A stretch of 64,000 nt of DNA, from assembly GCA_016865855.1 (NCBI GenBank), contig VGNX01000002.1, positions 81,574 through 145,573 on the forward strand, read 5' to 3'. This stretch comes from Chloroflexota bacterium. GTDB taxonomy: Bacteria; Chloroflexota; Dehalococcoidia; GIF9; UBA5629. Made by a program: the position numbers and the translations under genes. Below, one piece after another: positions 20,569 through 25,449 of the stretch; within the stretch, counting starts at the first letter, position 1, and each line of letters starts with the position of its first letter. The notes under the pieces were generated by a model that worked only from the letters and a program-made list of their open reading frames with translations, made no database searches and was not told the DNA's origin.

Positions 20569-20891
20569 CAAGTTGATGTGCGAAACTCCTGCGAATGCAG
20601 TCGCACGGCTTCTACAGCCGGATACTTGATGAGTCCGAGAAGCTCTAATTAGAGCATTCCTGGGGCATCGAAGGCTTGGACGAGGAGATCGCCATCCTGA
20701 GGGTCCTCACCGAAATCGCCGTCCTCTTATTAGGTTTGGCCCCTGTGATATAATAGAATTGAATATGTGTATAGTAACTAGGCCGTAGGGTACGAGGCAA
20801 AATGTTGCCAGGACTTTCTATCAACACATTATGTTACGAGGCCATACAGCGCAAATACCGCAATGCTGTGGTCGGATTCATTCGGTAGCGT

Positions 20892-23129
20892 ATGGCAAGC
20901 GCTTTCCCTAGCGATAGCGAAGAGAGAATAAAGCATCTGTTCAAGGAAGAAGAATGGGTTGATATCGTAGAAAACGCCAACATGCGTCGATGTACCGGTG
21001 AGATCGAAACACCTATAAAAGATATCTTCGATTACCTTGGCGTCAACCATTTCTATAATATCTTCGATAAGTACTACGATTTGCTTTTTCAAACGACGGG
21101 TTTATCATCTGATCAAGCCAAAGAAGAAAAGAAGGTAGTCCTGACTTGGACAAAATCAGTAAGGAATGTCAGAGATCCACTATCACATCCAGCCGAACAA
21201 GATATTTCTTGGCTTGATGCAATTGTTGTAATTGACTGTGCCCGACGGGTGGTTGCAAAATTTGACCGAGATATAGCTCTTGAAATACAACAAATCATCC
21301 AACAGTTGGACCTACGCTTTGCCAAAATAGATAGCCTTGATGAGCCTTCGCTGCGACCTCTTCAAGACTCTTTACCGCCCGCGGAATCGATAGCCGTTGA
21401 CTTTATAGGGAGACAAAAGGAACTCACCGCACTATCTGGATGGTTCACAAACCCAGAAACTAGACTCTAGATTCTAGCAGGTGATGGAGGCAAGGGCAAA
21501 ACAGCGATCGCACACAAGTTTGGACTAGATGTAAAGAATCACGCACCAAGACCATATGAAATCGTACTATGGCTGAGTGCCAAACGAAGAAAATTTGTTG
21601 AAGGCACGATTACTTACATAGACACTCCTGATTTTACTAATCTCGAAACTGCGATTAACAAGTTATTATTCGGTTATGGGTTCACCAATGATATCAGCAA
21701 ACCATTAACCGAGAAGAAACCCATCGTTCTAGAATTACTATCAGAACTGCCAGCTCTTGTGATCGTAGATGATATCGATTCGCTGGAAGGCCAAGATGAG
21801 GCGGCAATATCATTCTTTGTGTCCGATGTGTCAAAAACCCCCTCCAAAATACTATTCACATCAAGACGCTCACTTTTTGGCTACGCCCCTAATACAACCC
21901 AGGTTAATGGTTTCAACCGCGAAGACGGAATCGATTTTATCAAATCACGCATAGCCCTTTTTGGGCTCAGACCCAAGGACTTCGCAGAGCCTCACTTTGA
22001 TGCAATTATCAGGGTAACCGATGGCTCTCCACTATACATAGAGGAGTTACTCCGTTTTTGCTGTGTTGGCGTTGGGCTGAAAGAAGCAATGGCAACATGG
22101 GAAAAAGAAGGTGGCGATCTCGCACGTCAATTCGCCCTAAAGCGAGAGTTTGATATGTTAAGCCCTAACGCCAAGCAAGTCCTGTTGGCGTTCTGCCTAA
22201 ATAAGGGGCCATCAACTTTGGACGATGCAGAGGTGATAACCGGGCTAAGCAAAACAGCGGTCCAAGGAGTGCTCGGCGAACTGCAGCGGCTATTTCTCAT
22301 ACCACGACCTACAATTGTAAAAGGGATACCGCGCTTTGATATAAATATAAATACGCGGTCCCTTGTTCTCAACGTCATGTCTCAAACCGACGTATTCAAT
22401 AAGATACAATCCAACGTTAAGAGATTATCGGGCGAACTGCGAATCTCTGGCGAACGACGGCTAGAGGTGACGGAGTACCTAAAGCAGGGGGCAATACTCA
22501 CCAAATTGGAACGCTTTGCAGATGCAGAAGGTGTGCTTCAGAACGGGCTTCGCAAGTACCCTGATGACCCAGACATTCTTGCTCAGCTGGGCAGAACATA
22601 CGCCCGTTGGAAACCTATACCACGAATAGCCGAGGCAAAAGCTCACTTTAGAAGAGCCGCGGAGCTCAAGTGCTCTCAGGAAGACATGTATTATCATTGG
22701 TGGGGGCTGGAGTGCAAAGACTCGGAGTGGAGCAGCGCAGCCCTAGCGGCCGAAAGTGCAGCAAAATTATTCCCAAATAATTGGAAATTCAAATTCTACG
22801 CTGGATATGCTTGCAGCAGGCTCGGGAGACAGCTAAAACTGCAGTTCGCAAGCGACCGGGCTAGATACCAATTACGGAAAGCCGACAAACTTCTCACTGA
22901 GGCCTTGGCCTTAATCAATCTCGAGGACTTGGATTTGTCTGAATACCATCTACATGGGGACATACTCAGATGTTTGGTTCTGAACTGCGAGGCGCAGGGA
23001 CATGTCAAAGATATGGCCCGCTTCCTCACACAGTGGCAGAAAGAACACCCAGATGATAGCGATAGAATTCAGGAGTGCAGTCGACTCATCAGGAAATACC
23101 CCGACTTAGATCGTCAATTGCTTCAATAG
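20892..23129 (+). pseudogene. HEPN - STAND/NB-ARC-type NTPase - TPR protein interrupted by one in-frame TAG (21468-21470); candidate anti-phage/conflict gene
   Basis: ORFs 20892-21470 and 21759-23129 share a frame; I read 21471-21758 with no other stop (ILAGDGGKGKTAIAHKFGLDVKNHA...LPALVIVDDIDS). N-term RDPLSH (Rx4H, HEPN motif), FIGRQKEL, Walker A GDGGKGKT, Walker B LVIVDDID, C-terminal TPR-like repeats. Confidence 0.75.
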
Positions 23130-23283
23130 TGCAACAAATGTGAATCAAAAACTGACCTATCACTCAATCATCGCAATGCAATCTGGGGCACTAGAGATGG
23201 TTAAGCTGGGGCAGCCTGAGAGAATGTGTAGTTATGTACATGGAATTCCTTGAGTGAAATAGCGAAAAAAAACCAAGCGTTTT

Positions 23284-23715
23284 TCACCGATATTGCTCAA
23301 CCGTAATTCGTTTACTAAGAAGCTCTTTGATAAATGATGTGAGTTCTAGCCGTTCTTTCTCCTCCAAGCCTTTCTCAAGCTCCTCAATGAGACGTTCTGA
23401 TAGCCCCTCTGGATTTATAACTAACGTAAGTGGCAAAAGGATGAGCTGAGGCCAATGTGCTCTTCTCAGAACATCCTCGGGTGGAACACGGTACAATTGA
23501 GCCATCTTTATCAATATTGAGTCGTCAGGCTTTGTCCTACCAGTCTCGTAATTATCGAGTTGCTGCCGATCTTTAAACCCAAGTTCCCTTGCAGCTGCAG
23601 CTGTACCAAGCTTGGTTTTTTGTCCCCGCAACTCTGTAAGGTAAGCACCAAATGGTGTCCGCTTCCGCTGCGGATTCCTCTTAGGACTCATGATGACCTC
23701 TACACAATCGGACAA
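23284..23715 (-). CDS. XRE/Cro-C1-family HTH regulator (start probably internal MSPKRNP)
   Basis: FGAYLTELRGQKTKLGTAAAARELGFKDRQQLDNYETGRTKPDDSILIKMAQLYRVPPEDVL is a canonical HTH_XRE. Confidence 0.8.
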   Translation of the reverse strand: MSDCVEVIMSPKRNPQRKRTPFGAYLTELRGQKTKLGTAAAARELGFKDRQQLDNYETGRTKPDDSILIKMAQLYRVPPEDVLRRAHWPQLILLPLTLVINPEGLSERLIEELEKGLEEKERLELTSFIKELLSKRITVEQYR

Positions 23716-23731
23716 TTATGTTAACACCACG

Positions 23732-23747
23732 TTGACACTATTGTCAA
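23732..23747. promoter_or_regulatory. Palindromic candidate operator TTGACActatTGTCAA
   Basis: Perfect 6-bp arms, 4-nt spacer, 16 nt upstream of the XRE ORF. Confidence 0.5.
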
Positions 23748-23787
23748 TCCCAAGAAGCAAATTTATGCTGTTAGACAGGGTGAGTGT

Positions 23788-23802
23788 TTGACATTTAGTC
23801 AA
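23788..23802. promoter_or_regulatory. Second candidate operator TTGACatttaGTCAA
   Basis: Perfect 5-bp arms sharing TTGAC/GTCAA with the first site. Confidence 0.45.
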
Positions 23803-23982
23803 TTCTATGTTAACATATTAATGAGGATTGGCAGAGTTCGGGTTTGACACCTGCATGAAACGAGGTTAAGATATGAGTCTACAAACCCAACCTAGCCACT
23901 CAAGGGGACTGATGGGTAACCGTTATCGTCTCTAGGATTTGAAGATTGAGGTCAACAGGGATTGTACACTGAGGTACTTGTA

Positions 23983-24438
23983 ATGTTAAAAAGTGAGCAA
24001 GTAGATAAAGAGATTAAGTTATCAGGTGGGAGCAAAGAGCGCTATCCGATTGACCGGATTGACATACTCTTAGCTGCAATGCGTATTTTCTCTAAAGAAG
24101 GAAGAGATGAAGTAAGCTTTTCTGAATTTCAGGAGAGTATCGCAGAGTTCCAGCGAGAATTTCCCTCGTTGGGTTATGCCTTTGCGGAGCGATTCCTTCT
24201 TTCTTTAGATTTACTTACCGACTTAAGCAACTTGGATTACCGAGGTTATATACGTGATTATCATTGCCGGCTTGATGCTTTACTGCCTAAGAGATTTCTT
24301 TCTTTGACTGCCTTAGGGCGAGGCCAAGGTAATAAGGTATTGCAAACGCTCACAGACGATGTAGTGGATAGTCTTACAAGAGCAGTGAAAATCTCAATAA
24401 AAAATTACAATGAGAGATGGCGTTTGTGGGCTAGGTAA
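23983..24438 (+). CDS. Hypothetical protein (start adjusted to ATG with GAGGT SD)
   Basis: Track ORF 23962-24438; no family recognised; 3' end overlaps the convergent DCD-like gene by 8 nt. Confidence 0.55.
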   Translation: MLKSEQVDKEIKLSGGSKERYPIDRIDILLAAMRIFSKEGRDEVSFSEFQESIAEFQREFPSLGYAFAERFLLSLDLLTDLSNLDYRGYIRDYHCRLDALLPKRFLSLTALGRGQGNKVLQTLTDDVVDSLTRAVKISIKNYNERWRLWAR

Positions 24439-25327
24439 ATAGGTAAATCAAGAGCCCTACGACTCCACCTATTATAGCTGCAGCGATAGTACCACAGATT
24501 GTTAGTACACCTATAGTGAGGTTCCGAGTCCATTTGGTCTGTTCGTTATATTGATCGACCAACTTATCGAATGCTACCTTTGTTGCTGCAGACGTTGCCA
24601 GAGTTACTATGTCCGATGAGACTTCTTTCTCTATCCAATTACCAATTTCCCTCTGTGTCAGAAGGAACATGCCGCGAACTACATCCCAAGGCCAGCCATA
24701 CAAATCAACTATTTTTTCCATATCATCCTTATCGACCTTCTCTGGTAACAGGAGAGTTTGCTGTCTAGCGTGTGTAAATTTGATGCTGCCGATTTTAGTT
24801 CTTCCTAAGAAGTGGACTTTATCCCGCGTGAGTACTGTCTCTGCTTCTGAGGTCTGCATAAAGTAGCATGTGCAAAATTCCTCTCCATAATCAAGAGCGA
24901 CAGGATTTTTTGCTAGGTTTGTAAAGCCTATGAGTAATTTGCCGTACCAAGTGGGATCTATTCTAGTTGCAGATAGAGAGGTGCCTTCACAAATCCATCT
25001 AGCTCTGGGAACAATCATTGCTAATACATCTTTAGGTAAGCATATGTATTCCTTGGAGAGAATCAAAACTGTTTCACTAGGACCAATATCGATGTGTTGT
25101 CCTTCTGTAAGCGGTTGGACGACGTGTGGGTTCCTCAATGAGACGTATTCTTCACCCACAGACAGGTCATAGCAACAGGGTCCTAAAGCATAGGTTTCAA
25201 ATGGGTCAATCACAATTCTGTTCCCTATTTTGGCCCATGCACCCTCTTTCCACCACTCTTTTGCTTGCTCTGCCTTTTGGTGATCTTGAATTATGCGGTC
25301 TTTTAAGGCTTTATCCGCTAGAATCAT
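24431..25327 (-). CDS. dCTP deaminase/dUTPase-like (DCD fold) protein with C-terminal transmembrane helix
   Basis: GPCCYDLSVGEEYVSL...PSETVLILSKEYICLPKDVLAMIVPRARWICEGTSLSATRIDPTWYGKLLIGFTNLAKNPVALDYGEEFCTCYF resembles DCD; TM segment LTIGVLTICGTIAAAIIGGVVGLLIYLF; ATG start at 25327. Confidence 0.7.
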   Translation of the reverse strand: MILADKALKDRIIQDHQKAEQAKEWWKEGAWAKIGNRIVIDPFETYALGPCCYDLSVGEEYVSLRNPHVVQPLTEGQHIDIGPSETVLILSKEYICLPKDVLAMIVPRARWICEGTSLSATRIDPTWYGKLLIGFTNLAKNPVALDYGEEFCTCYFMQTSEAETVLTRDKVHFLGRTKIGSIKFTHARQQTLLLPEKVDKDDMEKIVDLYGWPWDVVRGMFLLTQREIGNWIEKEVSSDIVTLATSAATKVAFDKLVDQYNEQTKWTRNLTIGVLTICGTIAAAIIGGVVGLLIYLFT

Positions 25328-25449
25328 AATTAGCTCCGCCTTCAAGCACTAAATATCTAGATGCCTCCGCAGCGAGTGATCAGAATCCTACGAACAATTG
25401 TAATAGAGTATAAGCGAACTTGCAAGCAATAGTTGGGTTTCGGGAGAAA

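Follow-up and report, generated by a model that had tools for sequence, protein, structure and literature searches.

A HEPN-STAND-TPR gene with two in-frame amber codons, probably acquired horizontally and recently pseudogenised, in an uncultured Dehalococcoidia-class bacterium

Proteins in which a HEPN domain of the Swt1/Abi2 family is fused to a STAND-ATPase and TPRs have been described previously, with Npun_F6454, MED222_16016 and Desac_1927 as named examples (Anantharaman et al. 2013, PMC3710099). In the TPR-sensor STAND proteins PH0952 and MalT, contacts made by the arm and the sensor with the nucleotide-binding domain maintain a closed state, and activation proceeds through exchange of ADP for ATP followed by multimerisation (PMC6468293). 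Here we analyse a gene of this general design that lies in a 64,000-nucleotide stretch of Chloroflexota contig VGNX01000002.1 (assembly GCA_016865855.1), referred to below as the window. Compared by description, the window gene has the same domain combination as the Swt1/Abi2 fusions and a conserved Rx4-6H motif; it differs in that S1 is among the partner domains reported for that group (PMC3710099) and none was found in the window gene, and in that the window copy carries two TAG codons. Its best structural match, PH0952 of Pyrococcus horikoshii (6mfv), shares the NBD-HD-WHD-arm-TPR layout, but PH0952 has an ArsR-like DNA-binding effector and is a predicted transcription factor, unlike the window gene (PMC6468293). 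Plant NLR resistosomes (NRC2-4, ZAR1) and Apaf-1 likewise have an NB-ARC-type switch, an N-terminal effector and C-terminal repeats in common with it, although their sensors are LRR or WD40 repeats, their effectors are different and identity to the window gene is only ~13-16%.

A literature search for a combined description of STAND, HEPN, CHAT and TPR found nothing. The design is nevertheless already known, and the window gene is mainly to be seen as an ordinary representative, recently disrupted, of a widespread family. The reading that we consider probable is that an anti-phage-type STAND switch, similar to NLRs and Apaf-1, was acquired horizontally by this uncultured bacterium and recently pseudogenised. 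It would thus be another case of the fast turnover of costly immune genes, in which a small insert brings in an NLR-like switch that is soon broken.

Extent and domain architecture of the gene

The initial annotation had joined an ORF at 20892-21470 (192 aa), an open 288-nt bridge and an ORF at 21759-23129 into a single gene of ~746 codons. The common frame is borne out, and the bridge contains no extra disruption: between 20892 and 23129 the TAG at 21468-21470 is the sole stop. The start and the length required revision. Homologues recovered when bacterial genomes were scanned with an alignment begin ~30 residues further upstream (the N-terminus of L028, NTVCYEGIQRIFRNAVVGYLRKELTNAFPED, is an example), and the window matches them from an ATG at 20802, with a GAGG four bases before it, so that the gene comprises 775 codons (20802-23129). 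Translation from this ATG gives NTLCYEAIQRKYRNAVVGFIR*RMASAFPSD, where the star is another in-frame TAG (20886-20888), and the earlier description of a gene broken only at 21468 was therefore wrong. The previously proposed start codon, ATG 20892, comes three bases after this additional stop.

The frame is not a product of chance, because it contains two internal stops in 775 codons as against 25-48 in each of the other five frames, and because intact proteins can be aligned with it over its whole length, starting at ATG 20802 and reaching the C-terminus. Neither a frameshift nor any internal stop beyond the two TAGs is present in 20802-23129. The features of the locus are collected in Table 1.

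Table 1. Coordinates of the gene, its motifs and the surrounding insert, numbered from the first nucleotide of the window.
Feature	Position	Strand	Description
Lineage-specific insert, ~4.9 kb	20571..25446		Between rpsL and a CooC-like gene; 163 bp in same-genus genome G003
Full disrupted gene, HEPN-STAND-TPR	20802..23129	+	775 codons, two internal TAG, final stop TAG; matches intact homologues
N-terminal segment not seen in the initial annotation	20802..20885	+	28 codons, MLPGLSINTLCYEAIQRKYRNAVVGFIR; aligned to the N-termini of L025-L031, L033 and L065
First TAG	20886..20888	+	Residue 29, inside helix 1 (7-34) of the HEPN domain; variable column in relatives
Rest of HEPN-type domain and linker	20889..21467	+	Residues 30-222; all-helical model, pLDDT 88.8
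Rx4H motif RDPLSH, predicted RNase site	21171..21188	+	R124, H129
Second TAG	21468..21470	+	Residue 223, beta strand leading into Walker A; Trp in 9/11 relatives
Walker A, GDGGKGKT	21480..21503	+	Conserved in alignments A1 and A3
Walker B, LVIVDD (LVIVDDID)	21756..21773	+	D323, D324 and D326 invariant in alignment A3
TSRR motif, STAND/NB-ARC sensor region	21858..21869	+	T353, S354, R355 and R356 invariant
GxP motif GSPL, STAND helical domain	22023..22034	+	S409, P410 and L411 invariant
TPR/helical-repeat C-terminal sensor region	22452..23126	+	Residues ~551-775; TPR_14 match; model helices paired 550-774

The architecture proposed earlier, HEPN followed by STAND and TPR, is supported by motif conservation, by homologues and by structure prediction. 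The core of the protein is a STAND NTPase of the NB-ARC/AP-ATPase clade, with Walker A, Walker B and the GxP motif intact. The Pfam NB-ARC profile scores 21.1 bits on the window protein, below its gathering cut-off of 23.5, and NACHT is also weak; the same NB-ARC profile exceeds its cut-off on homologue P0001 (30.3 bits), and TPR_14 does so on the window protein itself (29.1 bits, cut-off 23.5). In an AlphaFold2 model built on an alignment of 11 sequences (pLDDT 82), a helical and winged-helix-like segment follows the NTPase; the top PDB matches of this model are PH0952 (6mfv), followed by plant NRC resistosomes and other NLRs, and Apaf-1. When the window protein was compared with the PADLOC defence-system profiles no defence match was obtained, only TRIP13 at 0.003.

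The N-terminal domain is likely a HEPN domain, an assignment that is based on the conserved motif and on the Pfam matches of homologues. R124 and H129, which form the R-x4/5-H motif, are the only invariant columns in an alignment of 14 N-terminal sequences (A4), and 8 of the 14 homologous N-termini match Pfam HEPN_Swt1 (best 1.8e-5), with orthologue L030 falling just below the curated cut-off (4.8e-5). Thus the Rx4H motif named in the initial annotation stands as a conserved feature, while the window N-terminus alone matches nothing in Pfam, HEPN_Swt1 included. A Foldseek search of the predicted domain model against the PDB gave no match at E<=0.001, and a profile of the HEPN alignment retrieved nothing meaningful from PDB sequences. 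Taken with the conserved site, the homologues' matches point to a Swt1-like HEPN domain with predicted RNase activity. Three further N-terminal matches (L010-L012) were treated as chance, that of L010 falling within an enolase-like ORF.

Relatives with exchanged effectors

Intact homologues occur in Chloroflexota, Acidobacteriota, Myxococcota, Actinomycetota and Pseudomonadota. Those of the HEPN type, which are full length and 32-44% identical to the window protein (L025, L026, L027 from Corallococcus exercitus, L028, L029, L030, L031 from Knoellia aerolata, and L065), come from the first four of these phyla and others; they have the same HEPN-type, STAND and TPR regions as the window gene, and only the window gene has internal stops. 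Two of them adjoin restriction genes, Type IIG and Type I (L025 and L065).

The closest relative of the STAND-TPR part is an intact protein of 789 aa (L024) encoded in the Dehalococcoidales MAG PFL11 (JALHSZ010000017.1; L022 177-2546), which is 60% identical to the window gene over 543 aa of STAND-TPR. Its N-terminus is a CHAT protease (PF12770; PADLOC 'chat' 7e-19) and not HEPN. The effector has therefore been swapped between close relatives. More distantly, a Dormiibacterota MAG encodes a STAND-TPR protein with a PIN RNase at its N-terminus (L032, 4239-6635), and many relatives from Pseudomonadota have an N-terminal SLFN_AlbA_2 domain. This surrounding family may be more useful than the broken copy, since a single STAND-TPR lineage bearing HEPN or CHAT, with PIN or SLFN_AlbA_2 at greater distance, would allow the same sensor-switch to be tested with different killers.

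By analogy with the TPR-sensor STANDs, the TPR sensor and arm of intact members would hold the ADP-bound NB-ARC-type NTPase closed. Binding of an invader-derived trigger to the TPRs would then open the NTPase and allow ADP to be replaced by ATP, and the ensuing oligomerisation would cluster the N-terminal effectors, such that HEPN domains could pair and cut RNA. Whether Swt1-like HEPN RNase or the CHAT, PIN or SLFN_AlbA_2 domains of relatives, these effectors would be expected to stop growth or kill the cell. The RNase activity, the phage trigger and the oligomerisation of intact members are all proposed here from such comparisons.

Two amber codons and how they may be read

The amber codon at 21468-21470 is real and lies, as first described, four codons upstream of the Gly that opens Walker A. 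An aromatic residue had been anticipated at this position, in agreement with the predominant Trp of the column (Table 1), where the remaining two relatives have Y and L; L024 is among those with W. Both TAGs fall inside conserved domains. Translation from 20802 would stop once 28 codons had been read, re-initiation at ATG 20892 could give no more than a HEPN fragment of 192 aa with most of helix 1 gone, and products of later starts (the first ATG/GTG/TTG is at 21759) would be without Walker A. As the products would all be truncated or late-starting, no working switch is expected, and we infer loss of function of the window copy.

It could instead be supposed that the gene is expressed in split form, with re-initiation at ATG 20892 delivering a free HEPN domain that acts alone. 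The spacing of only three bases between TAG 20886 and this ATG, together with the open 192-codon HEPN-containing frame that follows, would suit such an arrangement. Against it, the fragment would be without residues 1-30, and hence without the greater part of helix 1, which is confidently predicted, and without the STAND switch; the 3' part would be useless without Walker A, and the arrangement is found in no relative. We regard this explanation as highly improbable.

The initial annotation had left a fresh pseudogene, a sequencing error, phase-like inactivation and readthrough side by side. The existence of two TAGs shifts the balance towards a pseudogene and away from a lone sequencing error or a single phase-like switch; readthrough, considered below, is unlikely. 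An assembly or consensus error, through which one or both TAGs would be absent from the real chromosome and the gene intact, is itself unlikely. The sequence does come from a metagenome draft (84 contigs, 5.1% contamination), and elsewhere in the gene there is no surplus amino-acid change. However, it is improbable that two independent substitution errors would strike a single 2.3-kb gene and each produce TAG when no other split gene is evident among the 64 window ORFs; there are no frame-breaking errors.

If the gene has been pseudogenised, the event appears to be young. The window protein violates 4 of the 67 otherwise invariant STAND-TPR columns, compared with 0-10 in intact relatives; its unique substitutions are not in excess, with relative rates similar to those of the intact, 60% identical L024. 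Differences between the window gene and L024 at the three codon positions (0.32/0.22/0.63) indicate that purifying selection acted on the ancestor, and as constraint is not visibly relaxed the stops are likely to be recent. No additional amino-acid decay, indel or frameshift was seen in the gene. This is a weak counter-argument to pseudogenisation, because two nonsense changes imply by calculation ~41-49 neutral substitutions, too few to show clearly at conserved sites.

Sharing of an amber codon with relatives was considered and rejected: when the positions were compared across relatives neither TAG was common to any of them, and broken relatives fail in other ways, L037 through an assembly gap, L063 through a frameshift and L033 through loss of homology at the 3' end.

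Genome-wide recoding of UAG and use of pyrrolysine were likewise rejected. TAG is an ordinary stop, terminating 21 of 64 non-overlapping ORFs in the window and 11 of 32 on contig C10; RF1 is present (510 bits), pylS searches gave matches only far below the cut-off, and no CUA anticodon was found among the tRNAs surveyed. There is a single tRNA gene with a UUA anticodon on contig C10 (1159-1230, minus strand; L114 160-231), called 'tRNA-Stop' by ARAGORN, which folds into a full cloverleaf. Its lack of a homologue in 59 related genomes, the absence of an encoded CCA and its distance from every tRNA of its own genome give it a foreign appearance, and it is possibly an ochre/amber suppressor and perhaps phage-derived. 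It adjoins an odd tRNA called Val(tac) that has a long variable arm. In the genome as a whole, which is 91% complete, tRNA-Lys and tRNA-Phe are absent among 46 tRNA matches, probably owing to missing contigs.

Functional readthrough, whether by a suppressor tRNA or programmed, would supply a trace of full-length protein and so limit the dose of a toxic switch. That both stops are UAG (a chance of ~11-13% under random nonsense) in a gene with no further damage would accord with this, as would the well-folding UUA-anticodon tRNA gene, since ochre suppressors also read amber and U34 wobble could allow recognition of UAA and UAG. UAA is, however, the commonest stop in this genome and UAG an ordinary one, such that an efficient suppressor would be harmful and the C10 tRNA cannot be one. 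The isolated occurrence and unencoded CCA of this tRNA, the presence of RF1 with no pylS above cut-off, the restriction of the TAG positions to the window copy and the failure to find a conserved readthrough signal also speak against it, and we judge readthrough very unlikely. An elaboration that we hold to be extremely improbable is that the two ambers form a tripwire, the RNase switch being made only under UAG suppression and so sensing code-altering invaders; a suppressor tRNA from a recoded phage, or the organism's own UUA-anticodon tRNA, would then switch the gene on. Were either TAG read through, nonsense suppression would control immunity, which the evidence does not favour. Recent pseudogenisation therefore remains the reading that we prefer.

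The insert carrying the gene

The gene lies on an insert that also contains an XRE regulator, an orphan ORF and a dCTP deaminase-like gene. The insert is missing from a second same-genus genome (G002) in addition to that listed in Table 1; in genome G001 the 1.45 kb compared past this point had no match to the window. Its G+C content is 0.447, as against 0.481 and 0.491 in the flanks. A lineage-specific insert of lower G+C is consistent with a gene that was gained horizontally and later lost its function. Origin from a phage or plasmid was rejected, there being no plasmid DNA match and no phage protein match; protein searches of viral contigs with single sequences gave no match, and a search of such contigs with an alignment recovered two distant relatives.

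The distribution of the family bears on a further explanation, that the locus is polymorphic among strains, with the assembled allele null and other cells carrying an intact or differently broken gene, as for costly defence genes. Only one of the same-genus genomes has the insert, presence of any match to the STAND-TPR part is sporadic within the class (12 of 393 genomes, its own included), and one family member, L063, is frameshifted. Strain polymorphism on this pattern is nonetheless quite unlikely in our estimation.

The dCTP deaminase-like protein of the insert (24431-25345, minus strand) matches PF22769 with 51 bits and has a C-terminal hydrophobic stretch; compared with PADLOC profiles it gave no match. 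A dCTP deaminase-like gene was also recognised by eye upstream of the PIN-bearing L032 gene, at 10-588, as in the insert of the window.
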